Of a stretch of 28,764 nucleotides of DNA, positions 1-24,836 are shown one piece after another. The position numbers and the translations under genes were made by a program. Origin of the DNA: a virus. Under the pieces are notes generated by a model. That model searched no databases. It had not been told where the DNA came from and saw only the letters and a program-made list of their open reading frames with translations. The first letter of the stretch is position 1; every line of letters starts with the position of its first letter. The stretch covers positions 1 through 28,764 of IMG/VR virus record IMGVR_UViG_3300022602_000316. The stretch is one strand, 5' to 3'.

Positions 1-3000
1 TGGGCACCTGATATACGAATTGGTCAAAGTTCGATAACAGTCAATGGAATACCTGTACTAAGAGAATTATACACATTGAGTACTGTGGTATCAACAACAA
101 ATGGTTACACACAATATTCTGGTTTGTTAACTTTTGTTGTAGGAAATGCTCCGGCTAAAGGTTCTACCCTGTCTGTAACTTATCTTATTAATACAGTGAT
201 GCTGAATGCGGCAGACCGTGTTGAATTTTATTACGAGCCAGGATCTGGAATGTTAGGTAAGGACCTAGCACAAGTAATGACTGGAATCGATTATGGTGGA
301 ACAATCGTGGATGGTCTCGGTTTTAATGTACAAACCGGTTGGGGTTCTAGTCCATACTATAAAGATAAATGGGACAATTTTGATAGTACCTTTGATGACT
401 ACTATGTAACTGTTGCGGCCAATACACACAGTTTTACTTTGCCATATGTTCCTGCTGTTAATACAAATATCAACATTTATCAAATAAAAAATAATGTAGA
501 TAGTTATGATAATAGAACAGGAACATACAACGGACTATTAGAATTTGGTTACAATATTAATGATAGTAGCCCAGTAGCAACAACTGTTACACATATTAAT
601 ACAGCTGGCCATTCTACAACATACAATCCTGCCGGAAGTTATGAAACAACTTTAGTTGTAACAGATGCTACTGGAATATTACCAGGTATGGGAATTATAG
701 GAATTGGTTTTAGTTCTAATGTTGCTGTATTAACAACAACGGGTGCCAGCGGAACTGGTTCGGTAGTTACTTTGACTTTTGATACTCAATCAGTGCCTCC
801 TTATAGTGTCGGCCAAACAATTATTGTAAACAATGTATTACCGGCAGCATACAACGGCACTTACACAGTAACAGCATGTACTACTACCAGTGTCAGCTAT
901 TCCAGTACTGCGACCGGAACTAAAACACAATCTGGTACAATTATTGGCAGTGCGGTCCATAAAGTTGTTAGTGTAAATCAATCTACTAATACTGTTACTT
1001 TAAACAGAGCACCAGACAGTATTCCTAGCGGAACATTAGTCTTTACTTTTAACTTTGCCGGAAGTACAAAGTTAACCGTGGCCGATACTACTTACATCAA
1101 TGTTGGTGACGTAGTAGCTTGTGCTACAGTTAAATCTTTAATTTATAATTCAACAGTTACTGAGATTATTGATAGTCAAACTGTTATGCTAAATTCGATT
1201 GTATATGCGGATATTAATCCAGGAGTCGAATTAACATTTACTAAAACTCTAGTTCAGCCAACCGATATTACAATTAATGCTAATGGTACAGCAGTTTTAA
1301 ATTCTACCGCTTATCCAACCGGACTGTCTAATTTAACAGTTCTTAATATTACTGGTAAAATTAGTCCTATCAGACTAGATGATCCACATTATGGAACTGG
1401 TAGTCAGACTAATAAAAATGCTATCATGACTACTCCAGTATCAACCGGTACTCCGGATAGTCAAGTTGCTCCAGGACTGTATCAATATACAATTCATATT
1501 CCAAACGGGTATACAGTTTCTAACGGAGATGAATTTATTTTAAGACGTAGTACCAGCGATGGATCTATATTACCAAATGCTAATGATTATGATACATCAT
1601 TAGTTGGAGGCGATCTTGCTTATAGTACAGCTACTGGTTTGTCAGCAGATGATATAATTGTAGACGGGGACGGTATGGTTACTCCTACAACAAGTCCTGC
1701 TCCTGAAGAAGTAGTTCCAGGGCAAGTAGTTGATACAGTCGCTATTAAAGTATTTGATAGAGCTAGCTCAGGAGCTGCCAATGTTGCTACTGATAATTTT
1801 ATTACCGATGGCCATACAAACAAATTTACGTTGTCGCAACAACCAAATAGTCCAAAAGCATTGATTGTAAAAGTTGGCGCCAATATCAAAACATATAACA
1901 CTGATTACACAGTTAATTATAAAACTAATCAAGTCATACTAACAACAACGCCACCGGCTAACACTATTGTTACTGTATTCAATATAGGATTTGCTGGTTC
2001 TGGTATTCTCGATCTTGATTATTTTGTTGGCGATGGAATTACAACAGAATTTGTAACCAAGGCTCCTTGGCTTAAAGACATAACATCGATAGTTTATATT
2101 GACGGAATTGTGTCTAATCCTCAGTTATTTAAAACAGACAGTAGTTACGACTTTGCTAATGCTGTTGGGTTTAAGTTTATTACGCCTCCAGCGGCAGGAA
2201 GTTTAATTAATTTTATAATTGTGAGTGGTAGTCAGCAGACTTTTACTATTACTAATAAAGAAATAATAGCAACAGATGGTGTAAGTTTAACATATTCGCT
2301 AGCATATCCTGTCGGCACAAGTTTACCTTATGAATCAAATATGATAGTTCGTGTGGATCAAACTATTTTAACAGGACCTAATGATAATTATTTCACTATT
2401 GAAAACGATCAATTACAATATAATATAGATCCAGCAAAGGTTACTCCTTATTCTGCTACTATTCAAAATATTAATGTACTTGCAGATGGTATCGCTCTGA
2501 AACTAGGCTCGGATTATACTGTAGATCTTTCGGGGATCACAATTACATTGACACAAAATGCTTATACTTTATATGAAAATACAACCCTATTAGTAAGTAT
2601 TACTACCGATGAAAGTTATTTTTATAATCCTACATCTCAGACTATTACATTTACTCAAGCCTATGACAATACTCATGTGGTAGAAGTTATAAGTTCTTAC
2701 AATCATTCTGTACTAGATATAAGAAGATCAAGTGTGAATGTGACATCAAATGTTACCTTAACACCAAATACTGCTGATTATTATTACTATAAAAATCTAG
2801 CATCAGGCCTGATAAAATTAGACAGAACTGTTTTAAGTGATAATTATGTTTGGATAACTAAGAATGGTGTATTACTAACGCCTACTATTGATTATAAATT
2901 AAATGATGATAATCAAAGTGTACAGTTAGCAAAATTACCTATCAGTACTGATAAACTAACATTTATTACTTTTGGTAGTAATGTACTGGCTGCAGGTATT

Positions 3001-3912
3001 GCTTACATGCAGTTTAAAGATATGTTAAATCGTGTAAGTTACAAACGTCTAAGTCTAAGTAAGAGAACTACTCTTGCTAAAGATTTACATTGGAACGACA
3101 CTACTATTACTTTAACAGATGCTGGTAATTTTGATATTCCAAATCCTACAGCTAATAAACCAGGTGTAATTGAAATACGAGGCGAACGTATTGAATATTT
3201 TGCTATTTCAGGAAATGTATTAAGTAGACTACGCAGAGGTACATTAGGTACTGGTGTTTATAAATTACACAAAAAAGGTGCGTTTGTACAAGATATCGGG
3301 CCAACTGAAACAATCCCATATACTGAAACTACCATTACAGAACAAATTATTAGTGACGGCACAAGCACAGTTAATTTAAGTTTTGCTCCTCAGTTGTATC
3401 CTATCAATGATACAAAAACCCATTTGCCTGTAGCTCAAGTTCCAGCAGATATTGAAGTATTTGTCGGCGGATATAATGACGGTTCTGCGTGGGCAAGTGG
3501 TGTTGACTATAATGTAGGAGATATTGTTAATATTGGTAGCTATACCTATAGATGTACAACAGCTCATACTAGCGGATTGACATTTAAATCTGATAGCAGT
3601 AATTGGACATTCTTTATAGGAAATATACGTTTGAAAAAACAACCTTATAAAGTACATAATGTTAATGTTAACCCATATAGCCCTGCTGGAGATATAACTT
3701 TACCAGCAGACTTTACAGTAGATGGTGTTTCTAAATCCATAACATTGACTAATTTATTAAACAAAGGAACACATGTTACTGTAATTAAACAAATTGGAAC
3801 AGCATGGGATGGAAATAAAAATAATCCGGTTAATATTCTAAATGATAATAGTAAAATTTCAGAATTTTTAAAGGTTAGTCCGGGTGTTTGGTATACAGAT
3901 TACAAGAGTTAA
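1..3912 (+). CDS. Very large virion/tail structural protein, 5' partial
   Basis: The reading frame is open from the first base, so the N-terminus lies off the window; the TTG at 76 is only an internal codon. About 1303 residues are visible, almost all Thr/Ser/Asn/Val-rich beta-type sequence with no membrane segment. Several modules can be recognised. One, at about residues 254-316, has VGQTI and YNGTYTV motifs of a kind common in aquatic phage tail proteins. Another, at about 1055-1090, contains GVIEIRGERIEYF then LRRGTLGTG, a recurrent phage structural module. A third, at about 1163-1205, has an AW..GVDYNVGDIV...YTYRC pattern resembling small carbohydrate-binding modules (CBM5/12-like). The middle has repeated beta units built around FxVxDG-type strands. 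It is probably a baseplate or tail-associated adhesin-like protein. The family is inferred from motifs and from the fibre genes that follow; the exact virion position is unknown. Confidence 0.75.
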   Translation, partial: WAPDIRIGQSSITVNGIPVLRELYTLSTVVSTTNGYTQYSGLLTFVVGNAPAKGSTLSVTYLINTVMLNAADRVEFYYEPGSGMLGKDLAQVMTGIDYGGTIVDGLGFNVQTGWGSSPYYKDKWDNFDSTFDDYYVTVAANTHSFTLPYVPAVNTNINIYQIKNNVDSYDNRTGTYNGLLEFGYNINDSSPVATTVTHINTAGHSTTYNPAGSYETTLVVTDATGILPGMGIIGIGFSSNVAVLTTTGASGTGSVVTLTFDTQSVPPYSVGQTIIVNNVLPAAYNGTYTVTACTTTSVSYSSTATGTKTQSGTIIGSAVHKVVSVNQSTNTVTLNRAPDSIPSGTLVFTFNFAGSTKLTVADTTYINVGDVVACATVKSLIYNSTVTEIIDSQTVMLNSIVYADINPGVELTFTKTLVQPTDITINANGTAVLNSTAYPTGLSNLTVLNITGKISPIRLDDPHYGTGSQTNKNAIMTTPVSTGTPDSQVAPGLYQYTIHIPNGYTVSNGDEFILRRSTSDGSILPNANDYDTSLVGGDLAYSTATGLSADDIIVDGDGMVTPTTSPAPEEVVPGQVVDTVAIKVFDRASSGAANVATDNFITDGHTNKFTLSQQPNSPKALIVKVGANIKTYNTDYTVNYKTNQVILTTTPPANTIVTVFNIGFAGSGILDLDYFVGDGITTEFVTKAPWLKDITSIVYIDGIVSNPQLFKTDSSYDFANAVGFKFITPPAAGSLINFIIVSGSQQTFTITNKEIIATDGVSLTYSLAYPVGTSLPYESNMIVRVDQTILTGPNDNYFTIENDQLQYNIDPAKVTPYSATIQNINVLADGIALKLGSDYTVDLSGITITLTQNAYTLYENTTLLVSITTDESYFYNPTSQTITFTQAYDNTHVVEVISSYNHSVLDIRRSSVNVTSNVTLTPNTADYYYYKNLASGLIKLDRTVLSDNYVWITKNGVLLTPTIDYKLNDDNQSVQLAKLPISTDKLTFITFGSNVLAAGIAYMQFKDMLNRVSYKRLSLSKRTTLAKDLHWNDTTITLTDAGNFDIPNPTANKPGVIEIRGERIEYFAISGNVLSRLRRGTLGTGVYKLHKKGAFVQDIGPTETIPYTETTITEQIISDGTSTVNLSFAPQLYPINDTKTHLPVAQVPADIEVFVGGYNDGSAWASGVDYNVGDIVNIGSYTYRCTTAHTSGLTFKSDSSNWTFFIGNIRLKKQPYKVHNVNVNPYSPAGDITLPADFTVDGVSKSITLTNLLNKGTHVTVIKQIGTAWDGNKNNPVNILNDNSKISEFLKVSPGVWYTDYKS

Positions 3913-8514: not shown

Positions 8515-11415
8515 ATGTCATATAACATAACTAATTTTGATGGAACACCTTATGCTGTAGTAGCAGACGGCACAATTAATACCACTACAAGTCTTACTTT
8601 TATTGGTAAAAACTATGCCGGATACGGTGAAAAACAAAACGATAATTTTTTATGGTTATTGCAAAACTTTGCTAGTACAAGTCAGCCTGTAAAAACTACA
8701 ACAGGACAAACATGGTTTAACACAACCACAAGCGCATTAAAATTAAATGTATTTGATGGCGGTGGTTGGAAAACATTAGCGGTAAATCAAGTTGGACCTA
8801 CTTCGGGTGGAGGTCAAAATACTGCTGGAACTCCTACTTTAGGAGACATGTGGTATGACACAGTTAATAATCAATTAAAAGTATATAATGGATCCACTTA
8901 CATATTAGTAGGACCGCAAAGTGTAGCAGGGTTTGGCATTACCGAAATGCTTAGTACTACAATCGTAGATACAAATAATAACTCTCATCCTGTTCAAGAA
9001 GCTCTAGTAGATGGAAATATCTATTTCATAATTAGTTCGTATACTGATTTTACTCCTGAAGTTTCTATTCCTGGATTTTCAACTATATACCAAGGGATAA
9101 CATTAAATTCAAATTACAAAGTACACGGCACAAGCACAAACGCAGACAATTTAGGAAATAATCCTCCTAGTTTTTATGCTCCTGTTACAAATCCTGTATT
9201 TTTAACTAGTATTCAAGTACCAGACACTGGAGTCAATGTTGGTACTGCTATGACATTGTTAAATGTTAGTTCAACTCCAACCCTAAAATCTGCTTCAACA
9301 ACATTACAATTTCAAACCAGTGGCGGCGTAAATACACCATTAACTTTAGTTAATAATGATGTATTACCTAAAACTAATTTAAGCACAAATTTAGGAAGCT
9401 CTAGTCTTAAATTTAATAATTTGTATGCCGGTTATGTATTTTCAACAGCTCAAAAAGCCGACACATTAAATGATGGCAACGGTAACTATCAAACAGCTAG
9501 TGTATCTGGTGGTGCTAATACAATAGTAGTGAGAGATAATAACGGTGCTATAACTAGTGCTCATTTTATAGGTAAAGCAGATGCCGCTTCACAAGCGGAC
9601 CATGCTAATTTAGCTGACCATTCTACTTTAGCCGACATAGCTACTGTTGCAAATCAAGTTGATTGGAATAATATCTATCCTAACAAACCAAATAATTTTG
9701 TTTTTAATAATAATGCTACGTATAATATCAGTATTGTTGGAAATGTATTAGGTAATACAGAAGGACAACATAGTGGTAATGTAACTGGTAATGTAACTGG
9801 AAATTTATATGGAGATAGTTTTGGCAATCATTCGGGACAGCAGATTGGTGATGTCTTTGGCAATGTTATAGGCAATGTTCAAGGAAACATTATAGGAACA
9901 ATACATACTGCTACTGACCATTTTGTAGGAAATATATCGGGCAATCTTACTGGAAATGCTACCGGCGCAATACATACAGCTAGCAATCATTTTGCCGGCA
10001 ACTTGATAGGTAATGTAACTGGTAATGTAACTGGTAATGTAACTGGTAATGTAACTGGTAATGCCACAGGGGCAATTCATACTGCTACAAATTATTTCTT
10101 GGGTAATTTAACAGGTAATGTAATAGGTAATACCTCAGGAACTCATTCAGGCCCAGTTGTCGGTAATGTAACAGGTAATGTAACAGGTAATGTAACAGGT
10201 AATGTAACAGGCAACACCACAGGAACACATACTGGCCCAGTTATAGGTAGCGTGACTGGTAACGTAACTGGTACAATATATGCTCAAGGTGGTAGAATAT
10301 TTTTATCTGACGGAACGGCTGCTAATCCAAGTATTGCCTTTTACAGCGATGGCGCACAAGATACTGGTTTCTATTGGGGCGGAGATGGTTATATCAACAT
10401 TGCCAATAATGGTGCATATTCTGGACAGTTTGGTCCGGGAGGTAGTTTAGCATTAAATGGCACTGTTAGTGCTTCGGCGTTCTCGGGTAATTTAACAGGT
10501 AATTTAACAGGTAACAGTTATGGAACACATAATGGTCCTGTAATTGGCAATGTACAAGGAAATGCTAGCGGAACATCAAGTTCTATTACTAATCAGGGTA
10601 CGATAGCACCAGAAAATGGAACTAACGAGCCTAGTTATCAGCTTACTTTGCGTAGTATTTACAACAACGGATATCCAACAACTTATGGTAATTTAATTAC
10701 TCTAGGTGGTGCCGGAGGCGGTGAATTATTGATCGGATGGAGCGGCTCGACTGGTGCCCATGCTGATAATTATATCCGCAGTCGTAGAGATGTAGCTAAT
10801 ACTTGGAGCCCATGGGCTAAAGTTTTAACTGATGTTAATTTTGGTTCATTACTGGCAACAGTAGCAACATCAGGGAACTATAACGATTTAAGTAATACAC
10901 CTTCTATTCCTAATCCTGTTATAATTGCCCAAAATTTAAATAAAAATTTACAAAACATAGTAGAAACTATTGTTGGTACAATTGATATGCATCAGTCAGG
11001 CGGCTCAAATTACGAAGGCGGAATTATTAACGGACCTAGCGGTGGTTGGACGACAAGTTATTATAACTGGGGTTATGCGAATCAATCAGGCGGCTCAGTT
11101 ACATTAACTGTGGATCTAGCAAGTTTTTTACAACTTAGTAACAATCCAGCAGATTTAACCTGGAAAGGTAATTATGATTTGAATGTTCAATCTTCAATTA
11201 CTAGAATTTATGATGGAAGAAACAATTATTATGGTTTAGATCCGGTCACATGGTCTGTACAAGTCAGTGAATATACATCTAACAGATATGATGGTAACTA
11301 TGGCAAATTTAATATAACTGTATCTACCAGCGGTGACCATTATTATCATGGAACTAGTGTAGAAGCAAGTTGGATCGGGATAGGAAGTAGGACAAATAAT
11401 GTCTATAACCCGTAA
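8515..11415 (+). CDS. Long tail fibre paralog with GNVTGN repeat shaft
   Basis: 966 residues. The N-terminal module is shared with the other fibre genes here (SLTFIGKNYAGYG, DNFLWLLQNF, GQTWFN, then GDMWYD). Residues about 408-595 form a repeat shaft of GN(V/L/A)TG units interleaved with longer units around (A/T)IHTAxxxF and GTHxGP. Such glycine-asparagine repeats suggest a regular triple-stranded beta structure. After this come an IAFYSDGAQDTGFYW segment and, at about 703-775, a part ending in RSRRDVANTWSPWAKV that resembles pyocin-knob-type fibre domains. The C-terminal 150 residues are Tyr/Asn/Gly-rich and may be the receptor-binding tip. At DNA level the shaft contains two perfect 12-base tandem arrays. 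The last 17 bases overlap the next gene. Confidence 0.8.
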   Translation: MSYNITNFDGTPYAVVADGTINTTTSLTFIGKNYAGYGEKQNDNFLWLLQNFASTSQPVKTTTGQTWFNTTTSALKLNVFDGGGWKTLAVNQVGPTSGGGQNTAGTPTLGDMWYDTVNNQLKVYNGSTYILVGPQSVAGFGITEMLSTTIVDTNNNSHPVQEALVDGNIYFIISSYTDFTPEVSIPGFSTIYQGITLNSNYKVHGTSTNADNLGNNPPSFYAPVTNPVFLTSIQVPDTGVNVGTAMTLLNVSSTPTLKSASTTLQFQTSGGVNTPLTLVNNDVLPKTNLSTNLGSSSLKFNNLYAGYVFSTAQKADTLNDGNGNYQTASVSGGANTIVVRDNNGAITSAHFIGKADAASQADHANLADHSTLADIATVANQVDWNNIYPNKPNNFVFNNNATYNISIVGNVLGNTEGQHSGNVTGNVTGNLYGDSFGNHSGQQIGDVFGNVIGNVQGNIIGTIHTATDHFVGNISGNLTGNATGAIHTASNHFAGNLIGNVTGNVTGNVTGNVTGNATGAIHTATNYFLGNLTGNVIGNTSGTHSGPVVGNVTGNVTGNVTGNVTGNTTGTHTGPVIGSVTGNVTGTIYAQGGRIFLSDGTAANPSIAFYSDGAQDTGFYWGGDGYINIANNGAYSGQFGPGGSLALNGTVSASAFSGNLTGNLTGNSYGTHNGPVIGNVQGNASGTSSSITNQGTIAPENGTNEPSYQLTLRSIYNNGYPTTYGNLITLGGAGGGELLIGWSGSTGAHADNYIRSRRDVANTWSPWAKVLTDVNFGSLLATVATSGNYNDLSNTPSIPNPVIIAQNLNKNLQNIVETIVGTIDMHQSGGSNYEGGIINGPSGGWTTSYYNWGYANQSGGSVTLTVDLASFLQLSNNPADLTWKGNYDLNVQSSITRIYDGRNNYYGLDPVTWSVQVSEYTSNRYDGNYGKFNITVSTSGDHYYHGTSVEASWIGIGSRTNNVYNP
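10009..10056 (+). repeat. 12-base tandem array, T variant (4 perfect copies)
   Basis: Four consecutive perfect copies of GGTAATGTAACT inside the fibre gene, each encoding Gly-Asn-Val-Thr in frame, followed by a degenerate fifth unit. Copy-number change would lengthen or shorten the fibre shaft by four residues per unit without a frameshift. Confidence 0.95.
10162..10209 (+). repeat. 12-base tandem array, A variant (4 perfect copies)
   Basis: Four consecutive perfect copies of GGTAATGTAACA, also encoding Gly-Asn-Val-Thr in frame. Every copy ends in A whereas every copy in the upstream array ends in T, a synonymous difference (ACA against ACT). This suggests that each array expanded separately from its own seed unit. 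Confidence 0.95.
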
Positions 11416-12397
11416 ATTTAGTATACCTTATACCGAAGGGTCATTAGCGGCATTACAGGATTTGGATATAGATTCTATTTCTGATATCTACTTTAGTGAT
11501 AATCGTTTTGGTAGTGCCAGAAGTTTATTTGGTTCTAAGGAAATGTTTGATGAACTTTATGCTATACGTGATAAGTATGGTATAAAATTACATTATCTTA
11601 TTAACCCTAGTCTGTATAGCAACGAATTTTACGGACAAGTTTTTGATTTAATAGACCATGTTAAAGATATAGACGTAGACATGGTTACACTTAATAATTC
11701 TTATTTGTTAAGATCTAATATTATTAAGGATTTTCAAAAGAATAAACCCGATATTGTCTTAAAAAATAGTGTCAATAATCTAGTGCGTACCTTAAAAGAT
11801 TTTGTGTTTATGCATGAAGTGTTACACCTTACACATATTATTGTTGATAGAAGTCTTAATAGAGATTTAGATACACTGCGTAAGATGAGTAACTATGCTA
11901 AACAGCATGATATTAAAATTACAATGTTAGTAAATGAGGGTTGTATAGTAGATTGTAAATGGAAACAATGGGATGATTTAATTATTAGCCAAGTTAAGAT
12001 ACATGATAAAAGAGATCTAACTTCTAATGTACACAATAATTTAGGATGTGTGAGTTATTTTAAGGAAAATCCAGCAGAATGGTTAAAAACCGCATTTACA
12101 TTTCCTAACGATTTAGGTAAATTTGACGGATTAGTAGATGTAATTAAACTGGCAGGTCGTGGATATCCTATTGAAAGATGGAAACGTGTTGTAGATGCTT
12201 ACCAGAGATCTAGCGGCAACATACGTTTTGGAGAAATTTTAAGTACAACCGGGCATACGCCGTTGGCACTTACCATAATCAATGATATAACTGAATTAGG
12301 GTTTAATCAGCTAACTAATAATTGTAAGACAGTTTGTGGCATTGAGTGCGATCATTGTGATAAAGTATATGATAAATTAATAAAGGTTACAGCATGA
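11399..12397 (+). CDS. Peptidase-U32-like TIM-barrel protein with cysteine clusters (putative Fe-S enzyme)
   Basis: 332 residues, no signal peptide or membrane segment. The layout resembles the U32 family (UbiU/UbiV, TrhP, RlhA): alternating strands and helices, KLHYLINP near 64-70, IIVDRSLNRDLDTL near 147-160, then LVNEGCIVDC with Cys182 and Cys186, Cys217, and VIKLAGRGYPIERWKRVVDAY near 248-268, which matches the U32 pattern of an IKL.GR motif before a helix ending in AY. The C-terminus adds C309-x3-C313-x3-C317-x2-C320. Characterised U32 relatives hold a 4Fe-4S cluster on four cysteines and several carry out oxygen-independent hydroxylation of RNA or quinone precursors. A similar Fe-S role is inferred here. 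It overlaps the fibre gene before it by 17 bases and the next gene by 4 (ATGA), so it belongs to the tail operon. The family call comes from motif reading and is not certain. Confidence 0.6.
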   Translation: MSITRKFSIPYTEGSLAALQDLDIDSISDIYFSDNRFGSARSLFGSKEMFDELYAIRDKYGIKLHYLINPSLYSNEFYGQVFDLIDHVKDIDVDMVTLNNSYLLRSNIIKDFQKNKPDIVLKNSVNNLVRTLKDFVFMHEVLHLTHIIVDRSLNRDLDTLRKMSNYAKQHDIKITMLVNEGCIVDCKWKQWDDLIISQVKIHDKRDLTSNVHNNLGCVSYFKENPAEWLKTAFTFPNDLGKFDGLVDVIKLAGRGYPIERWKRVVDAYQRSSGNIRFGEILSTTGHTPLALTIINDITELGFNQLTNNCKTVCGIECDHCDKVYDKLIKVTA

Positions 12398-13074
12398 CAG
12401 ATACAACTTTACCCCCAGGAGTCAAAGTATCTACTGGTTGGACAGCAGATAAACAATATAGCATAGCTTTTTCTATGACTACCAGATTAATCACTGGTAT
12501 ATATGGATCTGTTGCTTCTTTTTCAGATATTACACATCCTGATTCAGATATTGAAATACACTATCTTGGACAAGTTACAGAACAGCTTTATAATGATATA
12601 GCTGAAAGTATATTGTCTCCCAGTCAACTAGCTTTCTGGACAGCAGACAATACTTTTAAAATGAGAAAAGCTATTGTAAATTTTGGTCCAAACACATATC
12701 TAGATAGCAAAAAGAAATCTGTTGTTGGAGTAGATAATTTAATTACTTTAATTCCACAGATTGTAGATCAAAATGGAGTACAATGTACAGATATTACAGA
12801 AATAGGAATTAAAAATCTACAGAAATTAGATTTTCCTATCAGTATAAATGGAGCAGATACCAGTATATACAAGTCTACAACAACAAATGGCGGATCGGTT
12901 ACGTTTCAATTAGACAAAATAGGATACGCATCCATTAGATTTAAAGCCCTAGTACCAGAACTAAGCACAGTTTGGCTTAGTATATACCCTGAATTATATG
13001 GATATGATGCCGACCAAATGATAGCGTTTAATACTTGGGTAAACAGTAATCAGTCAACGCCAAATACAGTATAA
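12394..13074 (+). CDS. Unknown protein coupled to the U32-like gene
   Basis: 226 residues, not recognised. There is no signal peptide, membrane segment or clear catalytic motif. The sequence is mostly beta-type with YSIAFSMTTRLITGIYGSVASF near the N-terminus and a Pro/Ser-rich middle; the last third (GYASIRFKALVPELSTVWLSIYPELYG) looks like a small beta-sandwich. The start overlaps the U32-like gene by four bases (ATGA) and the gene is followed by a TATAAATA element that overlaps its stop codon. Its place between two fibre paralogs suggests a virion-associated protein, a fibre assembly factor, or a partner or substrate of the U32-like enzyme. None of these is shown by the sequence. Confidence 0.6.
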   Translation: MTDTTLPPGVKVSTGWTADKQYSIAFSMTTRLITGIYGSVASFSDITHPDSDIEIHYLGQVTEQLYNDIAESILSPSQLAFWTADNTFKMRKAIVNFGPNTYLDSKKKSVVGVDNLITLIPQIVDQNGVQCTDITEIGIKNLQKLDFPISINGADTSIYKSTTTNGGSVTFQLDKIGYASIRFKALVPELSTVWLSIYPELYGYDADQMIAFNTWVNSNQSTPNTV

Positions 13075-15198: not shown

Positions 15199-16110
15199 AT
15201 GGCATCAGTAGGTTCAAAAATATTAGCAAGCGATTTTAATGGTGTTCAATCGACTATTAATACAGTGTTGGGAACATACTATGGCCAGTCAGTTACTAGT
15301 AGTCAAGTTTCAGCAACAACATCAAAAATTACTGCAGCTCAATGGCAAGCACTATACGTAGATACTTTAAAAACTTACAATCACCAAAATTATGTAAATG
15401 GTACTTTGACCTATCCATCCACAAATAATACAGTTAAAGCTGCAGATTTTTTAGCATATCAAACAATGGCAAATAGTTGTTTGACTAATTATACACAATT
15501 CCTTTCAGGGTATTCGGCAACTCAAGCATTTAGCGCATTATCAATACCAGGTGGATGGGGCAATAGTTCAACTAACACAGCTATCCACACTCTTTCAGTG
15601 GTGTTTGCTAACGCAAATTACGCTAGTTATTATTTTAATGCCGGCGGACAAATAAGATTTACAGCTAGTTTGGCCAGCAACGGTAGTGCTAAAGATAATA
15701 GTTGGAGCAGTATGTTAAATCATATGGGAACTATAGCGTTTGGTTCGGATACTACAACAACATTATCAGGAGCCACTACACCTGGCACTGGATCCAACGT
15801 AGGGTTTCATCAATTAACTGGATCTTATCAGCAGATCTACTCTAAAGGTACAGAAAACTCTACCTATACGCCAAACACTTATAATATCTACGCTAGTATT
15901 AGTGGTGGAACAATAACTTTTAAAATAGAATTTGAAGATTTGTCAGGACCAGCTTATCAAGGTATATATAATATTGACGAAGCAGTAGGTGGTACAGCTA
16001 CTAGTTCAACTTCTTTATACTATGCTTCTGGATCGGGACAAGTATCAGTAACAAGTTATTTGCCAAGTCTTGGTACTAATAGCTACGCCTATAGTACTCC
16101 AAATCCTTAA
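15199..16110 (+). CDS. Virion structural protein, probably tail-associated
   Basis: 303 residues. The start ATG follows a GAGG ribosome-binding site. The N-terminal part (SKILASDFNGVQSTINTVLG, then ITAAQWQAL) looks helical and the C-terminal two thirds are beta-rich with YYFNAGGQIRFTASL near residue 145, a motif I recognise from structural proteins of T4-like aquatic phages. There is no membrane segment. It closes the late virion operon: its stop is followed within 13 bases by a sigma70-type promoter for the next cassette. Exact virion location is unknown. Confidence 0.65.
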   Translation: MASVGSKILASDFNGVQSTINTVLGTYYGQSVTSSQVSATTSKITAAQWQALYVDTLKTYNHQNYVNGTLTYPSTNNTVKAADFLAYQTMANSCLTNYTQFLSGYSATQAFSALSIPGGWGNSSTNTAIHTLSVVFANANYASYYFNAGGQIRFTASLASNGSAKDNSWSSMLNHMGTIAFGSDTTTTLSGATTPGTGSNVGFHQLTGSYQQIYSKGTENSTYTPNTYNIYASISGGTITFKIEFEDLSGPAYQGIYNIDEAVGGTATSSTSLYYASGSGQVSVTSYLPSLGTNSYAYSTPNP

Positions 16111-16122
16111 TACCAATATCCA

Positions 16123-16151
16123 TTGACAAACTAATTACAGTAGCGTATTAT
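16123..16151 (+). promoter_or_regulatory. Sigma70-type promoter for the glycosyltransferase cassette
   Basis: TTGACA at 16123-16128, a 17-base spacer, then TATTAT at 16146-16151: full -35 consensus, one mismatch in -10 and ideal spacing. Transcription would start near 16158, and a CGGAG ribosome-binding site and ATG follow at 16161 and 16172. It marks the switch from late virion genes to a cassette that host RNA polymerase could read directly. Confidence 0.85.
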
Positions 16152-16171
16152 AGTACACTACGGAGTTTGTC

Positions 16172-16522
16172 ATGGACGAAAGAATAGAAAAAGCCTTTGC
16201 TGTTGCCAATTATATGTCAACACTGAGCAATCAAAGAAGAATACTATTAGAAGAATATAGTCAAAAACTAGTATTCTACATCAATGGTGCTAGTTTTAAA
16301 ATAACACCAGAATTAATTACTTTTACTAAAACTATTTTAGATCTTGGCTATACAGAAGATGTGGCTTTTATTGATGCAAATAATTTTCCTGTCATCATAA
16401 ATGATGTACAAGATTTTTTCGATAAAATTAGTCTTACTTATTTTGAATCGACTAATGATTATGCGGCTAGATATGCTGATTTAAAAAGCAAAAGAAAAAT
16501 TTCTGATATAGTAGAGCTATGA
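16172..16522 (+). CDS. Small conserved T4-like phage protein of unknown function
   Basis: 116 residues, soluble and probably mostly helical. The N-terminal ANYMSTLSNQRRILLEEYSQ followed by LVFYINGASFKIT is a pattern I recognise from uncharacterised proteins of T4-like cyanophages and relatives. No catalytic motif is visible. It is the first gene behind the sigma70-type promoter, so it should be made early and strongly. The next gene starts inside its last codons (ATGA overlap), which ties it to the putative glycosyltransferases downstream. Confidence 0.65.
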   Translation: MDERIEKAFAVANYMSTLSNQRRILLEEYSQKLVFYINGASFKITPELITFTKTILDLGYTEDVAFIDANNFPVIINDVQDFFDKISLTYFESTNDYAARYADLKSKRKISDIVEL

Positions 16523-17367
16523 TAAACGGAGCAATAATTTTTGCTCAAAATAATTCTAGTTTAGACTATGTTAAACTAGCAGTATTTGCGGCTAGACGTG
16601 TAAGAGAATATTTAGACATTCCTGTTAGCATAATTACAGATAGTGTTGACTGGCTTAATACAGGATACCCGGATCATCCATTTGATCAAATAATACCAAT
16701 TGGTTATCAAGATACAACACAGTACAAAAAGTTTAATGATGGAACTGTGGCTAGCAAAACCCTTGAGTGGAAAAATTTAACAAGAAATTTAGTATATGAT
16801 CTTACTCCTTACGATCGTACACTAGTTATTGATAGCGACTATATAATTAATTCAAGTGTATTAAAACCTGCTTTTCTTAATGATTATGATTTTCAAATTT
16901 ATCACACTAACATGGATTTAGCATCATGGCGTAGCACAGCAGAATTTACAAGATTAAATCAGTACAGCATACCTTTTTATTGGGCTACAACATTTGTATT
17001 TCAAAAGAATACAATTACACAAGCCTTTTTTGATCTAGTAAGTTATATTAAATCTAATTGGTTATACTTTAGAAATTTGTATAGTATAGATGATAATAAA
17101 TTTAGAAATGATTTTGCCTTTAGTATAGCAATACACATTATGAATGGAAAAACAAATGGCGGGTTTGCCACAGAGTTACCGGGCATTATGACTTTTATTA
17201 CAGATAAAGATATAATGATATCTTTAGAAAAAGACAAAATGAAGTTTTTAATAGAGAAAGAAAATTATTTGGGAGAATACACGTTAGCTAAAACTCAAGG
17301 AATTGATGTACATGTTATGAATAAACTAAGTCTTAGCAGATTCATAGATGGAGGTTCTGGTGTCTAA
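16519..17367 (+). CDS. GT-A-like glycosyltransferase candidate
   Basis: 282 residues. The N-terminus (GAIIFAQNNSSLDYVKLAVFAA) and IPVSIITDS look like the first strands of a GT-A fold, and LVIDSDYII places a DSD metal/nucleotide-sugar motif at 105-107 at the expected distance. There is no membrane segment. It resembles the following gene in length and layout (both have an (L/I)xFAxNxxxxDYV start and DxD near residue 90-106), so the two are probably divergent paralogs in the GT8-like range. Donor and acceptor cannot be read from sequence; phage DNA bases, virion proteins or host glycans are options. It overlaps the upstream gene by 4 bases. Confidence 0.6.
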   Translation: MINGAIIFAQNNSSLDYVKLAVFAARRVREYLDIPVSIITDSVDWLNTGYPDHPFDQIIPIGYQDTTQYKKFNDGTVASKTLEWKNLTRNLVYDLTPYDRTLVIDSDYIINSSVLKPAFLNDYDFQIYHTNMDLASWRSTAEFTRLNQYSIPFYWATTFVFQKNTITQAFFDLVSYIKSNWLYFRNLYSIDDNKFRNDFAFSIAIHIMNGKTNGGFATELPGIMTFITDKDIMISLEKDKMKFLIEKENYLGEYTLAKTQGIDVHVMNKLSLSRFIDGGSGV

Positions 17368-18196
17368 GGGATTTTTAATTTTTGCTAAAAATACAGATGT
17401 TGATTACGTTGAACAAGTATGTGCGTTAGCATTGAGTATTAAGTATAGTCAAACTATTGATAGTGTAAGCATAGTAACAGATGATAGTGTTCCTGAAAAA
17501 TATTCTAGATTATTTGATAATATTATTCCTATTCCGTTCAATACTGATACTACCAGCACCTTAGCAACTGAACATAGATGGAAGTTATTCCATGCTAGTC
17601 CTTATAATGAAACAATAGTGCTAGATGCCGACATGTTATTATTAGAAGATATTAAAACATGGTGGGATTATTGTGCCAATTATGACCTTAAATTCTGTAA
17701 TAGAATAAAAAATTACAAACTAGAAACAGTAGTTGATACTGTCCATAGAAAAACATTTATAGCAAATAAATTAACTAATCCATACTTTGCTCTACACTAC
17801 TTTAAAAAAACAAATACAGCACTTGAATTTTATAAATTGCTAGAATTTATTTGTAATAACTGGGAATGGTGTTGGGGGAAATTCGCTCCTGAAGAATACC
17901 AAAATTGGCCTAGTATGGATCTTGCCAGTGCTATTGCTATAGAAATGATGATGTGCCAAGATACTGTATTTGATCAATATTGTCCTTTAGAATTTATACA
18001 TATGAAAAGTCCGTTACAAGGATGGACTGTTTATCCAGAAAAATGGACAGATTCAGTATCTTGTATATTAAACAGTAAAGGTGATTTAGTAGTAAACAAT
18101 ATCAAGCAAGGAAAAATATTTCATTATGTAGAAAAGGATTTTATAACTCCTAAACTACTAGAACGGTTAGAAGGATTGGCAAATGGCAAAGCGTAA
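17360..18196 (+). CDS. GT-A-like glycosyltransferase candidate (GTG start)
   Basis: 278 residues from a GTG at 17360. I prefer this start because GGAGG at 17350-17354 sits five bases before it and because the protein then begins like its upstream paralog. An ATG exists at 17348 but would have the ribosome-binding site inside its own first codons. The fold looks GT-A-like: SIVTDDSVPE near 40-50, then TIVLDADMLLLED with the DAD motif at 89-91. A later FIHMKSPLQGW resembles the C-terminal His motif of GT8-type enzymes. It overlaps the upstream gene by 8 bases and the downstream gene by 14. The enzyme class is fairly likely; the substrate is unknown. Confidence 0.6.
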   Translation: MSKGFLIFAKNTDVDYVEQVCALALSIKYSQTIDSVSIVTDDSVPEKYSRLFDNIIPIPFNTDTTSTLATEHRWKLFHASPYNETIVLDADMLLLEDIKTWWDYCANYDLKFCNRIKNYKLETVVDTVHRKTFIANKLTNPYFALHYFKKTNTALEFYKLLEFICNNWEWCWGKFAPEEYQNWPSMDLASAIAIEMMMCQDTVFDQYCPLEFIHMKSPLQGWTVYPEKWTDSVSCILNSKGDLVVNNIKQGKIFHYVEKDFITPKLLERLEGLANGKA

Positions 18197-18785
18197 ATTT
18201 AAACCAATTGATAATTCTGATCATGAGTATTATGCTTATTTCGATCCATTAACCGATAAAGTATTTTTAGTTACAGCAGAGCAACACCCTGCCCACAAAT
18301 ATTTTGCTAAGATAACTAAAGATCAACATGCCGAAATAACATCTGATAAAGTTAAATTTGAAGACTGTATAATTGATCGCGTAGTTCAATCTGACGGATC
18401 TATCGAACATAAATTGCTGACTAAACAAATGTCAGACGAATTTAGTTTTAAAAGAAATAGTTTTTTATGGATTACAGAACCAGTAGATGCTAATACCGAG
18501 TTTGTTGTTACATGGAACAAAGAAAATAAACAATGGAGATTCCATGTAACTGACGCTGGTCGTAGTGTATTGTCGGGAGCAAGTTATGATAATACACTTG
18601 TAGTATTTGTTACATTATCTACAGACTTAGATTTTTTAGTAAGAACTTTTTATATAAGAATACACGATGTTCTTAAAGCAGGTGAAATTATTTTTGATTT
18701 TGAAAGTACATTAGAATCTCACATTGAAAACTTGTCAGTATCTACTAAAAAGTTTTTTACATATTATGGAATAAAACATGATTAA
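18183..18785 (+). CDS. Unknown protein within the glycosyltransferase cassette
   Basis: 200 residues, not recognised. It starts with a basic stretch (MAKRKFKPI) and is otherwise acidic, mixed alpha/beta, with no membrane segment. AEQHPAHKYFAKITKDQHAEI is a notable His/Lys-rich part, and the centre (FLWITEPVDANTEFVVTWN) looks like a small beta domain. An AGAAGGA ribosome-binding site lies inside the previous gene. It overlaps that gene by 14 bases and the next by 8, so it is translated as part of the cassette. A helper or accessory role for the flanking glycosyltransferases is possible from position only. Confidence 0.6.
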   Translation: MAKRKFKPIDNSDHEYYAYFDPLTDKVFLVTAEQHPAHKYFAKITKDQHAEITSDKVKFEDCIIDRVVQSDGSIEHKLLTKQMSDEFSFKRNSFLWITEPVDANTEFVVTWNKENKQWRFHVTDAGRSVLSGASYDNTLVVFVTLSTDLDFLVRTFYIRIHDVLKAGEIIFDFESTLESHIENLSVSTKKFFTYYGIKHD

Positions 18786-19674
18786 AATTATAGAACAGGA
18801 TATTATATTTCTCAGCTATGATGAACCAAATGCTGAAAAAAATTACGCAGATTTATGCGATAAAGTACCTTGGGCAAAACGTGTTCATGGAGTTAAAGGC
18901 AGCGATGCAGCGCACAAGGCTTGCGCCGCCTTAAGTGAAACAGAATATTTCGTTACTGTGGATGCTGACAATATCGTCGATCCAAAATTTTTAGAAGTTG
19001 AAATTGACCTTGATAAATTAGGTCTTACACCCGAGCATGTATTCAGTTGGTGCGGTCGTGTACATGTAAATGGACTTATGTATGGTAATGGTGGTTTAAA
19101 ATTATGGACACGCAAGTTCGTAAATGAAATGCGTACACACGAAAATAGTGACCCAACGGATACTAAAGGTCTAGTTGAATTTTGTTTTGACGACAAGTAT
19201 TATCAGTTTAATGAAAGTTATAGTGAAAGTTTTACTAACGCAACTCCCTTTCAAGCGTGGCGAGCAGGGTTTCGTGAAGGTGTAAAAATGAGTTTAGACC
19301 AAGGAGCTAAGGTAAAAGATCTTAAAACAATTTGGTGGCAAAATTATCATAGGCTTTTAGTATGGGCTAGTGTTGGCACAGATGTAGAAAATGGTATATG
19401 GAGTATAATGGGTGCTAGAGAAGGTTGTTGGAAAACAAACTGTACTGATTGGGACTATAGCCAAGTAAGAGATTTCGAATGGTTAACAGACTACTGGAAT
19501 ACTACACACGAGCAAGCCAAGCCTGAAGAGATGACAAAATACATTAATTTTTTAGGATCAGAATTAAAAGAAAAATGCAAATTGGAGATAGCAAATTTAG
19601 ATTCTGCTGGCAGTCGATTTTTCAAAACAGTATATAATAATAGTCCTCGTATATTGAGAAAACGCCATGTATGA
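18778..19674 (+). CDS. GT-A-like glycosyltransferase candidate, second family (copy A)
   Basis: 298 residues. The N-terminus (DIIFLSYDEPNAEKNYADL, then AKRVHGVKG and AAHKACA) followed by YFVTVDADNIVDPKFL with DAD at 62-64 is the pattern of a GT-A family found in T4-like aquatic phages. A second conserved block, PFQAWRAGFREGVKMSL, lies in the C-terminal half. The next gene carries both blocks, so the two are a tandem duplicate, and this copy has about 70 more residues, partly a Trp-rich C-terminal extension. It overlaps the neighbours on both sides by 8 bases. The substrate is unknown. Confidence 0.65.
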   Translation: MIKIIEQDIIFLSYDEPNAEKNYADLCDKVPWAKRVHGVKGSDAAHKACAALSETEYFVTVDADNIVDPKFLEVEIDLDKLGLTPEHVFSWCGRVHVNGLMYGNGGLKLWTRKFVNEMRTHENSDPTDTKGLVEFCFDDKYYQFNESYSESFTNATPFQAWRAGFREGVKMSLDQGAKVKDLKTIWWQNYHRLLVWASVGTDVENGIWSIMGAREGCWKTNCTDWDYSQVRDFEWLTDYWNTTHEQAKPEEMTKYINFLGSELKEKCKLEIANLDSAGSRFFKTVYNNSPRILRKRHV

Positions 19675-20347
19675 TATAGTCTTTATTAGTTACAACGAAA
19701 AGTACGCAGATGAAAATTTTGCTAATCTAAAAGAACGATTTCCTTTAGCAAAACGTGTACACGGAGTTGAAGGCATACATCAAGCACATATAGCCGCTGC
19801 ACGTAAATCGTTTACTAAAATGTTTTGGGTAGTAGATGCGGATGCTGTGATATTAAATGATTTTAAATTTGATTATCAAGTTCCAGATTGGGATTTAGAT
19901 GTAGTTCATGTATGGCGTAGTTTAAATCCCGTTAATAATTTGTCATACGGATACGGCGGAGTTAAACTGCTACCAAAATTTCTTACACTTAAAATGAACA
20001 CTGATACTATAGATATGACTACAAATATCAGTGCTAATTTTAAAGCTATGGATGCTATTAGCAACATTACAGCATTTAATACAGATCCATTTAGTACATG
20101 GCGTAGTGCCTTTAGAGAATCTTGTAAATTAGCAGTAATTAATAATGAAGAATCTTTATCTAGATTAGATGCTTGGTGTAACTTAAACACAAATGCCGAG
20201 TATGGATTTTATGCGTATATAGGAGCATTGTCTGGAAGAGATTACGGAGAAAAAAGTGCCTCCAATAAGGAGGCACTTGCTAAGATAAATGATTTTAATT
20301 GGCTAGAAGTTCGTTGGCTAGCGGAAAAATCTCAGATATCACTTTAG
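19667..20347 (+). CDS. GT-A-like glycosyltransferase candidate, second family (copy B)
   Basis: 226 residues. It shares with the upstream gene the start (YDIVFISYNEKYADENFANL), AKRVHGVEG, VVDADAVILNDF with DAD at 57-59, and PFSTWRSAFRESCKLAV. It is shorter because it lacks the Trp-rich insert and C-terminal extension of copy A. Its last 53 bases overlap the 3' end of thyX on the other strand, and codons near 196-204 contain the hairpin that terminates the opposite operon, so its C-terminal sequence is constrained by that signal. I see no terminator for its own strand. Confidence 0.65.
   Translation: MYDIVFISYNEKYADENFANLKERFPLAKRVHGVEGIHQAHIAAARKSFTKMFWVVDADAVILNDFKFDYQVPDWDLDVVHVWRSLNPVNNLSYGYGGVKLLPKFLTLKMNTDTIDMTTNISANFKAMDAISNITAFNTDPFSTWRSAFRESCKLAVINNEESLSRLDAWCNLNTNAEYGFYAYIGALSGRDYGEKSASNKEALAKINDFNWLEVRWLAEKSQISL
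20250..20278 (-). terminator. Intrinsic terminator of the minus-strand operon, inside the opposing gene
   Basis: AAGTGCCTCC (20254-20263) and GGAGGCACTT (20269-20278) form a perfect 10-bp stem with a 5-base loop. On the minus strand the stem leads directly into six T, a classic Rho-independent terminator, 16 bases after the thyX stop. On the plus strand no T-run follows, so it works in one direction only. Confidence 0.9.
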
Positions 20348-22207: not shown

Positions 22208-22495
22208 TTATCTCGTCTGTAAAAAAGGACAGGCAATCGTGAAGAAACTGAGTTCTTTTTCTGATTCAAAACCAATACGGGTTGTATATATGATTGTGTT
22301 AGTATTGTCTAACATAATACCCTGTCCTATATAGTACCTATTATTTAGATTCTTACGAATCCAACCATCGATGGATTTGACTAGGCTAGGGTTATATTTG
22401 TCTACGTTTGTATATTTAAAATGAGGGCAGGCAAACTCGACCCTCCTAAGATCGAAATAATCCAAAGGATTGGGCTTGCCATTCTTTAATGCCAT
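22208..22495 (-). CDS. Conserved hypothetical protein
   Basis: 95 residues. The conserved-looking core is NPLDYFDLRRVEFACPHFKY and, later, RYYIGQGIMLDNTNTIIY; two cysteines (CPHF, ACPF) are placed near the two ends. There is no membrane segment. Its ATG overlaps the TAA of the metallopeptidase/VWA gene (TAATG), so it is translated with it and may belong to the same function. I do not recognise a domain. Confidence 0.6.
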   Translation of the reverse strand: MALKNGKPNPLDYFDLRRVEFACPHFKYTNVDKYNPSLVKSIDGWIRKNLNNRYYIGQGIMLDNTNTIIYTTRIGFESEKELSFFTIACPFLQTR

Positions 22496-23679
22496 TACGC
22501 CGCCTCTTTAGCAAATTCGTAATAAGCATATTCTCCAAAAGGTGGAACAATCTTATCTGTGCCGTGAATGATGAACACTGTATCACAGTAGTTTTCATCA
22601 CCCCAGCTACCCCAAGGATAACCATCTGTAAACATGATAAACTTTTTAGGTTGAATGTCATGTTCTTTCATGTATTCCCAGTTAGCATCAAACTCGGTGC
22701 CGCCACCGCCCATTGGCTCATAGCTATCGAACTCGTCGATGTTATAACCGTCGAAGTCGGCTTCGTTGTAAACACGAGTATCAAAGCACCATACTTTAAT
22801 CTTAAAGTCTTTGTATTCTTCCATAATGCCTTTGATCTCTGTTAAGAAATCTTTGGCTTGTTCATCACCAATAGAACCAGACATGTCAATTGCCACGCAG
22901 ATATCGATTGTTTCTTGGAACTGAGTTCCAGGCAATACAGCACTCATGTGCCAGCCCTTGCGGTTAGGACGCATGAATGAATAGTCGTTTTTAATAGTAC
23001 TTTGGATTTGTTGACGCAGAATTTCACGCCAATTCATCTTAGGCTCTGTCAATTCTTTAATCATGCGTTGTACACTAGCAGGAGTATTGCCAGCACCTGC
23101 GGCTTGTGCGGCTTGCATTGTAGCTTCACGGATCTCGTCACGGATCTGTTTTAGTTCTTCTTTAGTGTACTTTGGCTGACCATCTTTACCATTCTCGCCC
23201 CAGTCAATGTGATCATCAAGTAGTTGACCCAATTGGTTAAGTTCTTCTTCATCCATTTCGTCGAAGATCTTGTCGTAGACTTCTTCTGCTCCCATGCCAT
23301 AGTATTTTGGATCATGGAAGATTTTGATACCTTCGATATTGTGTTCACCAATTCGGTCACGTACTAACTGTCCATTAACACAATAGTCTGCGGCAATATT
23401 AAAAATACGAGGATCACGGTGATCTCTACGACCCATATGATCAAATACATTATGTAAGATTTCGTGAGCAATAACGAACTCTACTTGTTTAACTGATAGA
23501 GGTTCAAAAAATTCACGATTAAAATAGATAGTACGACCATCTGTAGCCGCGGTACCCATCCATTCGGAACCTTCTTCAATCTTTAGGCGTGTAGCCATAT
23601 TACCAAAGAATGGATGGCGAAGTAGTAGACCTACACGGGCTACGATAATTTTGTCGATGATTGGATCTACGTTAGACAT
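22495..23679 (-). CDS. Metallopeptidase-like plus VWA-domain protein (DUF2201 type)
   Basis: 394 residues. The N-terminal half holds a zinc-metallopeptidase signature HEILH at 72-76, preceded by IYFNREFF and followed by IFNIAADYCVNGQL, as in DUF2201 putative metallopeptidases. The C-terminal half is a VWA-like domain with a complete MIDAS: D265-M-S267-G-S269, T328 after a GGGG run, and D352 in FTDG. Such proteins work with MoxR-type AAA+ ATPases, encoded here by the next gene upstream in the same direction. The pair probably remodels, assembles or cleaves a target protein complex; the target is unknown. It has its own strong promoter at 23704-23732 and an AAAGGAG site. The next gene downstream overlaps its stop. 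Confidence 0.85.
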   Translation of the reverse strand: MSNVDPIIDKIIVARVGLLLRHPFFGNMATRLKIEEGSEWMGTAATDGRTIYFNREFFEPLSVKQVEFVIAHEILHNVFDHMGRRDHRDPRIFNIAADYCVNGQLVRDRIGEHNIEGIKIFHDPKYYGMGAEEVYDKIFDEMDEEELNQLGQLLDDHIDWGENGKDGQPKYTKEELKQIRDEIREATMQAAQAAGAGNTPASVQRMIKELTEPKMNWREILRQQIQSTIKNDYSFMRPNRKGWHMSAVLPGTQFQETIDICVAIDMSGSIGDEQAKDFLTEIKGIMEEYKDFKIKVWCFDTRVYNEADFDGYNIDEFDSYEPMGGGGTEFDANWEYMKEHDIQPKKFIMFTDGYPWGSWGDENYCDTVFIIHGTDKIVPPFGEYAYYEFAKEAA

Positions 23680-23703
23680 AATGCTCCTTTACTATATGTA
23701 TAT

Positions 23704-23732
23704 ATTATAACACCTCCCGCAGGAGGTGTCAA
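23704..23732 (-). promoter_or_regulatory. Perfect-consensus sigma70 promoter of the VWA gene with inverted-repeat spacer
   Basis: On the minus strand TTGACA (23732-23727), exactly 17 bases, then TATAAT (23709-23704): both hexamers are full consensus. The spacer contains most of a perfect inverted repeat, ACACCTCC/GGAGGTGT with a TGCG loop (23710-23729), that runs into the -35 box. It may be an operator, or a hairpin in transcripts arriving from the upstream ATPase gene. Confidence 0.9.
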
Positions 23733-23747
23733 ATGCTACCAAATCAA

Positions 23748-24836
23748 TTACTTTTCAGTAGCTTGGGCAATAAAGCGTCCATATTTGGCATGGAAATCAT
23801 CAAAACATTTGATCTCATCTGGATCCAATGGCAATTTGTAAGTGCTCAAAGCCAATTTAGTACCCATAATAACCAATTCTGTTTCAAAGTTATTCATCAT
23901 AAATTCGAAGAAATTGTTTACTTGCTCATTCCAATTTTTAGCTTTCTTCTCGCAGGAATCTTTCAATTCATAGCATAAGGAAACTGTCAAACTATACATG
24001 GCACTAATTTCTTTAGAATCCATCTTTTTAACTTTACCACTCAAAATGTCGCTTGGATTTGGCATTTTGCTAGCAACTTTTCGGTGAGCCATAAAACTCA
24101 CAGCCAAACCTTCACCGACAGAACCTGAAACCAAATCAGTTAAAGTGTCAGTATCTACGTCATCGTCAGTAAGCAATTCGCTTACAAATGACCAAGAGCG
24201 TGGAGTAGCAAATGCACGTGAGCTAGATTTTGGATCAAAATCATACAAGCTCTTTTTAGAGAAACTCAAAAAGCCCACAACATCCTGGTGAATCTTGTTC
24301 TCTACAGCCCACTCAAAATAGTCGTCCCAATTAACAGCCATTTCCAAGTGAACAAAACGGTTAGCTAACGGAGCAGGCATACGGAATGTAACGCCTTTGT
24401 CAGTTTCACGATTACCAGCCGCAACTAGTACAACATTGTCGGGAAGGTGATAGGTACCTACACGACGGTTTAAAATAAGCTGATAAGCTGCCGCTTGAAC
24501 AGCAGGAGCCGCACTATTCATTTCATCCAAGAATAGGATAATTTGTTTATGTTGTTTAGCCAATTCTGCATTTGGCAATTCGCTAGGAGGTGCCCAACGC
24601 ATTGTGCTATCGTTGCTATCAAAATATGGAATACCTTTGATGTCTGTAGGTTCCCACAGACTCAACCGAACATCGATCACGTGAGCATCAAGCTCAGTAC
24701 CAAGTTGTTTGATAATATCGGATTTGCCAATTCCTGGAGGACCCCACAGGAAGATTGGACGCTTGTTTTGGAAAGCCTTACGCAGGGACTTTTTAGCACC
24801 GCTAGGGCCTACTGTACGGCTTGAAATTTCTGGCAT
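23748..24836 (-). CDS. MoxR-type AAA+ ATPase (cyanophage CobS-like)
   Basis: 362 residues, a single AAA+ module. Walker A is GPPGIGKS at 32-39, Walker B LFLDE at 101-105, sensor 1 the N142 in AAGNRE, and an arginine-finger candidate is R160 in PLANRF. The order and the MPAPLANRF segment fit MoxR-family ATPases. Related phage genes are often annotated cobS, but no cobalt-chelatase partner is present here. The DUF2201/VWA protein immediately downstream is the usual type of partner: the ATPase drives remodelling and the VWA protein contacts the target through its metal site. The C-terminal third is helical and less conserved. It has its own sigma70 promoter and a TAGGA ribosome-binding site. Confidence 0.85.
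   Translation of the reverse strand: MPEISSRTVGPSGAKKSLRKAFQNKRPIFLWGPPGIGKSDIIKQLGTELDAHVIDVRLSLWEPTDIKGIPYFDSNDSTMRWAPPSELPNAELAKQHKQIILFLDEMNSAAPAVQAAAYQLILNRRVGTYHLPDNVVLVAAGNRETDKGVTFRMPAPLANRFVHLEMAVNWDDYFEWAVENKIHQDVVGFLSFSKKSLYDFDPKSSSRAFATPRSWSFVSELLTDDDVDTDTLTDLVSGSVGEGLAVSFMAHRKVASKMPNPSDILSGKVKKMDSKEISAMYSLTVSLCYELKDSCEKKAKNWNEQVNNFFEFMMNNFETELVIMGTKLALSTYKLPLDPDEIKCFDDFHAKYGRFIAQATEK

Follow-up and report, generated by a model that had tools for sequence, protein, structure and literature searches.

What does a protein related to the U32 family do when its gene lies between the tail-fibre genes of an aquatic bacterial virus? The question is raised by a 332-residue open reading frame (ORF) in the stretch of DNA analysed here (the window, 28,764 nucleotides, positions 1 to 28,764 of IMG/VR virus record IMGVR_UViG_3300022602_000316). 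Tail fibres are the proteins that decide host recognition. An original prediction, made by a model from the letters alone, had described the ORF product, here called P0001, as a U32-like putative iron-sulfur (Fe-S) enzyme that could modify fibre residues without oxygen. We find that P0001 belongs to a seven-cysteine U32-like branch that probably works like the U32 hydroxylases. As a whole, our answer is a tentative one: P0001 may be an Fe-S, prephenate-dependent, O2-independent hydroxylase, produced together with the fibres and acting on fibre or adhesin residues or on the 226-amino-acid (aa) partner.

Fold and family of P0001

The U32 likeness of P0001 is real but remote. The protein scored 12.0 bits (E 0.13) against the Pfam U32 profile (PF01136), under the curated cut-off of 22.4 bits, and a direct sequence search of solved structures gave nothing relevant for P0001. 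The phmmer matches to mitochondrial L28 (E 0.2-0.3) were rejected as chance. The PHROG 5757 "peptidase" profile matched residues 83-271 (E 5.2e-5), and tblastn found distant matches in 218 phage records, chiefly T4-like phages of enterobacteria. A first AlphaFold2 model, made with close relatives as input, had a predicted local distance difference test (pLDDT) score of 71, and a second, made with 57 sequences from three phage clades, had a pLDDT of 83 and a predicted template modelling (pTM) score of 0.85. The top solved structure for both models was Mk0906 (PDB 5d88), a U32 protein that is itself uncharacterised, and the U32-like assignment of the original prediction was thus borne out by a TIM-barrel match, remote as it is in sequence. 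For the second model the Foldseek E value was 1.5e-6 and the VIA-align Z score was 17.2 over 223 residues (13.3 for the next barrel); the match spans residues 2-261 only, with the C-terminal cysteine region outside it. Judged from these models, P0001 almost certainly has a U32-type TIM-barrel fold. In hhalign the pooled phage profile reached 93.5% against four U32 proteins of E. coli, but a profile of only the window clade matched them weakly. The phage profile matched archaeal intermediates at E 3e-22 to 3e-21, three members of this archaeal clade exceed the Pfam U32 cut-off, and it is via the archaeal members that the branch is linked to PF01136.

P0001 contains exactly seven cysteines (Cys182, 186, 217, 309, 313, 317 and 320) and ends at residue 332, just past the C-terminal cluster. 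Their spacing is CX3CX30C followed by CX3CX3CX2C, whereas U32 Fe-S hydroxylases are recognised by the motif CX6CX15CX3/4C (PMC6747719). Because P0001 falls under the Pfam cut-off and lacks this canonical four-cysteine motif, we keep it outside PF01136. All seven cysteines are at the positions originally given, and the C-terminal C-x3-C-x3-C-x2-C was present in 18 of 18 close relatives. Across the three phage clades, between which identity is about 20-28%, the seven cysteines were kept in all 110 proteins, and the loss of cysteines in homologs that would have spoken against the prediction did not appear. In the 57-sequence alignment six of the seven fall among 19 invariant columns (chance ~1e-7). 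The motifs N-E and K-x-x-G-R are invariant as well. The original prediction held for cysteine conservation; the spacing departs from that of the canonical motif.

In a tree, support of 97/95 divides the window-type, cyanophage, Straboviridae and archaeal seven-cysteine proteins from those of the U32 family in E. coli, and the window type pairs with the cyanophage type at 99/97, to be read with caution given several long branches, above all that of the outgroup. The cyanophage-type clade is PHROG 1458 (phrog_1458) and corresponds to T4-GC 354 in P-SSM4 (PSSM4_035) and Syn19 (Syn19_046). It was found in 123 phage records, all of them cyanophages, and 272 matched stretches in an IMG/VR scan encode such relatives, 80 of which were fetched. 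These proteins are annotated as "hypothetical protein" and share the seven cysteines and a location near fibre genes with P0001. They differ in their flanking genes and in length, most having ~540-570 aa (about 555 aa) with a C-terminal Methyltransf_24 domain (Pfam, locus L051) that P0001 lacks. A scan of a genome collection with the cyanophage-type profile gave a single match, on a 3-kb contig in a Euryarchaeota metagenome-assembled genome (UBA439; L150, DANB01000001.1, and L153) that encodes a protein of 59% identity and is probably phage DNA.

The Straboviridae-type clade is PHROG 5757 (phrog_5757, "U32 peptidase"), found in RB69-like, Thanatos and other phages. It was the top viral match for the U32-like fold and has the seven cysteines in common with P0001, although its first pair is spaced NExC-x10-C, versus x3 in P0001. 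Relatives of the query were present in 22 of 390 archaeal genomes sampled. These short archaeal U32 proteins (L157-L179) share the cysteine pattern, carry N-Q-x-C and K-x-S-G-R and are linked to the phage branch by profile; unlike P0001 they are over the Pfam cut-off (three tested), cellular and adjoined by a divergent chorismate mutase gene. Relatives of P0001 are already annotated, as "peptidase" or "hypothetical protein" in many phages, and the claim of an undescribed system is half true.

By analogy with the sister clades and the characterised U32 proteins, P0001 very probably binds Fe-S, and the seven invariant cysteines are consistent with this. It would be a divergent seven-cysteine U32-type TIM barrel holding at least one Fe-S cluster, the candidate ligands being C182, C186 and C217 of the barrel, probably with some or all of C309-C320.

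The chorismate mutase link

The product of chorismate mutase is prephenate. Pfam identified a type-II chorismate mutase in the gene joined by an ATGA overlap to the U32-like gene of Thanatos-2 (E 8e-8) and of Klebsiella phage F48 (E 7e-10), and two further Straboviridae records annotate chorismate mutase at this place with a thymidylate-synthase gene next. Of 16 Straboviridae loci searched by profile, 13 have chorismate mutase 3' of the U32-like gene, directly adjoining in at least eight; it was not found in the other three, two RB69-like loci and one more. The ATGA-overlapping arrangement, followed by a thymidylate-synthase-like gene, was seen at L025:8843-9100, L026:9035-9280, L151:5155-5394 and L152:5158-5502. 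The Straboviridae chorismate mutase could be a phage supply of prephenate for 5-hydroxycytosine DNA.

A second linkage was found in archaea. In 13 of 23 loci there, the strand opposite to the U32 gene shows a chorismate-mutase-like match ~100-140 bp upstream of it (L159-L165, L167-L169, L171, L172 and L174). Two of the 13 matches are weak (E ~0.003), and Pfam confirmed seven of seven tested at E <=1.4e-13. Prephenate is required by TrhP for formation of 5-hydroxyuridine 34 (ho5U34) and by RlhA for 5-hydroxycytidine 2501 (ho5C2501) (PMC6599085), and a review treats it as the oxygen source of the U32 hydroxylases (PMC11574389). Since two separate chorismate mutase linkages, in Straboviridae and in archaea, occur within one branch, these gene neighbourhoods argue that the seven-cysteine branch uses prephenate. 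The proposal of oxygen-independent hydroxylation gained support in this way.

P0001 itself is fairly likely to be a prephenate-dependent hydroxylase, judging from its sister clades and the characterised U32 proteins. It would hydroxylate a C-H bond without O2 and with prephenate as co-substrate, like TrhP and RlhA, and prephenate from the host would suffice. With TrhP, RlhA and UbiU-UbiV it shares TIM-barrel homology and, by our reading, the prephenate-dependent O2-independent reaction; it differs from them in cysteine motif, in its extra C-terminal four-cysteine cluster and in the setting that suggests its substrate.

Position in the fibre operon and the candidate substrates

The original prediction placed the gene in overlap with a fibre gene on one side and coupled by ATGA to another gene on the other, and both junctions are as described (Table 1). 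The upstream fibre ORF terminates 17 nucleotides (nt) within the U32-like ORF, an overlap found in 20 of 20 loci. The ATGA of the U32-like gene is the start of ORF 12394-13074, and this downstream overlap is -4 in 18 of the 20 loci and -1 in two. The order fibre, U32-like gene, 226-aa gene, fibre was seen in every compared locus covering those positions, including loci without the gene cassette at 16519-20347 described below. Other phages thus carry the same gene beside fibre genes in window-type loci, and the cyanophage relatives lie near fibre genes.

Table 1 Coordinates of the U32-like gene, its cysteine codons and the adjoining genes
Feature	Position	Strand	Basis
U32-like seven-cysteine enzyme (P0001), 332 aa	11399..12397	+	ORF, PHROG and fold matches, tree
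Upstream tail-fibre gene, 966 aa	8515..11415	+	PHROG tail fibre 22609 (E 7e-10) and others
Overlap of fibre stop and U32-like start, 17 nt	11399..11415	+	Kept in 20/20 loci
Cys182 codon, motif N-E-G-C	11942..11944	+	Invariant in 110 proteins of three phage clades
Cys186 codon	11954..11956	+	Invariant
Cys217 codon	12047..12049	+	Invariant
C-terminal cluster, Cys309, Cys313, Cys317, Cys320	12323..12358	+	In all 110 proteins; spacing slightly clade-dependent
226-aa gene, ATGA-coupled, always adjoining the U32-like gene	12394..13074	+	Locus comparison
Downstream fibre-like gene, 690 aa	13098..15170	+	PHROG 19602 tail fibre (E 3e-10) and others

P0001 shares 70-92% identity with the 17 relatives aligned, and the neighbouring fibres fall to ~35-55% identity in the more distant window-type loci. 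The ratio of nonsynonymous to synonymous substitution rates (dN/dS) of the U32-like gene against four relatives was ~0.03-0.07, an approximate value as dS is near saturation, and the gene is under strong purifying selection. The C-terminal tip of the upstream fibre (about residues 880-966) is conserved across the clade with invariant aromatic residues and histidine. No homologue of the 226-aa neighbour was found in phage records. Because conserved translational coupling locks the U32-like gene between both, the fibre and the 226-aa protein are the likeliest substrates, and the upstream fibre (its tip) or the 226-aa protein would be the first candidates. Judged from position, and given the rest of the proposal, the case for the fibre or a co-encoded virion protein as substrate is evenly balanced. 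Within the fibre cassette of a window-type relative lies a gene for a radical S-adenosylmethionine (SAM) protein (L045:14475-15569) that matches SPASM weakly and could be another protein-modifying enzyme.

The cyanophage-type genes in metagenomic contigs lie within runs of overlapping genes. In L051 Pfam assigns members of the run to the 2-oxoglutarate (2OG)-Fe(II) oxygenases and to the flavin-dependent Trp-halogenases; the stretch L051:6425-16596, 3' of fibre-like ORFs, holds the oxygenases, a pair of Trp-halogenase genes and the gene for the U32::methyltransferase fusion. A 2OG-FeII_Oxy_5 match occurred at most 5 kb from the U32-like gene in 15 of the 17 records having one (3.3 expected for a random U32 position), and a Trp-halogenase match within the same distance in 10 of 11 (1.6 expected). 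Cyanophage 2OG oxygenases have been proposed to control 2-oxoglutarate levels (PMC3037559) or to act in DNA repair (PMC2984593). The predicted association of 2OG oxygenases with fibre genes thus holds in the sister cyanophage clade, unlike the setting of P0001, where neither these oxygenases nor halogenases adjoin. Besides the U32-like gene itself, no tested neighbour family was common to window-type and cyanophage-type loci.

Several observations weigh against a prephenate-dependent fibre hydroxylase. In the window clade no 2OG oxygenase stands beside the U32-like gene, the nearest matches being ~10-35 kb off, and chorismate mutase was found neither beside the gene nor elsewhere in eight window-type contigs, all of which are fragments. 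P0001 has neither a Pfam-level U32 match nor the canonical motif. In TrhP, E162 lies eight residues before the first essential cysteine; the window has I174 there, and its conserved Glu is E180. The Straboviridae relatives suggest a nucleotide rather than a protein substrate. Fibre modification would be a plausible role; literature searches on phage U32 hydroxylases or on U32 proteins with tail fibres gave nothing relevant.

Alternative roles and what the branch may mean

The Straboviridae relatives point to a different substrate. P0001 could hydroxylate a nucleotide or nucleic acid (a DNA base, tRNA or rRNA), its place among the fibre genes reflecting gene organisation only. RlhA and TrhP do act at pyrimidine C5 (PMC6599085). 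The Straboviridae gene lies between gp43 and uvsX, with sugar-nucleotide genes and chorismate mutase, and shares an operon with the thymidylate-synthase-like gene; its hosts are phages of the type whose DNA contains arabinosylated 5-hydroxycytosine. The hydroxylated nucleotide has been attributed to a thymidylate-synthase-like 5-hodCMP synthase (PMC13390438), and the Thanatos authors stated that they had no valid hypothesis for the origin of the hydroxyl group (PMC12838424). We infer that the Straboviridae U32-like protein shares in the cytosine hydroxylation step. For P0001, however, a thymidylate-synthase-like gene was found neither in the eight window-type contigs, all of them fragments, nor in four cyanophage genomes, and its gene sits between fibre genes with conserved overlaps, the cyanophage relatives likewise lying near fibre genes. 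Base-modification genes of T4-like phages are usually grouped with replication genes. We consider a nucleic-acid substrate for P0001 unlikely, though the most probable of the alternatives.

Fe-S chemistry might instead be directed at a small molecule or sugar that is used by the 16519-20347 genes and then put onto the fibre or the host surface. Positions 15199-20347 of the window contain a glycosyltransferase-looking cassette with two related protein pairs (16519-20347) and no significant family match. The 16519-20347 genes are co-directional and paired, and the methyltransferase fusion of the cyanophage clade, by its halogenases and oxygenases, recalls natural-product tailoring. The cassette is absent from eight compared window-type loci, where thyX is directly 3' of the fibre and the U32-like gene is nevertheless kept, and profile searches lend no significant support to reading the cassette as glycosyltransferases, which makes this explanation quite improbable.

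Similarly low is the probability that P0001, with its U32 fold, binds Fe-S or a metal for a purpose other than hydroxylation, serving in fibre assembly or cluster-dependent folding or as a virion component. Its tight coupling to structural genes would fit such a role, and many of the proteins in cyanophage virions are unassigned (PMC3037559), but the invariant N-E, K-x-x-G-R and cysteine motifs look catalytic. The methyltransferase fusion and oxygenase neighbours of the sister clade and the chorismate mutase link in two other clades also speak against it. A protease that matures the fibre, for which the "peptidase U32" annotation is the sole argument, is very improbable, since those U32 proteins that keep the cysteines and have been characterised are hydroxylases of the Fe-S kind (PMC6747719, PMC11574389) and chorismate mutase neighbours do not fit.

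Elsewhere in the window, a large ORF at 1-3912, truncated at the window start and no shorter than 1303 aa, carries a CBM_5_12 carbohydrate-binding module close to the C-terminus. On the minus strand, a MoxR-like AAA ATPase and VWA/DUF2201 pair lies at 22495-24836; Pseudomonas jumbo phages, PA5oct among them, encode an ATPase with 53% identity to this one. Also on the minus strand, a QueE-like radical SAM protein that could belong to 7-deazaguanine synthesis lies at 28160-28762, cut by the window end.

If P0001 is the proposed Fe-S hydroxylase, the U32 group would gain a branch defined by its own cysteine signature, with a co-substrate that is testable through the chorismate mutase linkage. In phages with arabinosylated DNA, the same branch would be a candidate for sharing in the C5-hydroxylation of dC. 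The broadest picture is one in which phages hydroxylate their own tail fibres post-translationally with prephenate and without O2, as part of fibre-adjacent oxidative tailoring in aquatic T4-like phages, and in which the same branch acts with chorismate mutase in making Straboviridae 5-hydroxycytosine DNA; taken together this is unlikely. A P0001 acting as proposed would also point to chemical modification of tail fibres as a layer still to be explored in abundant aquatic phages.

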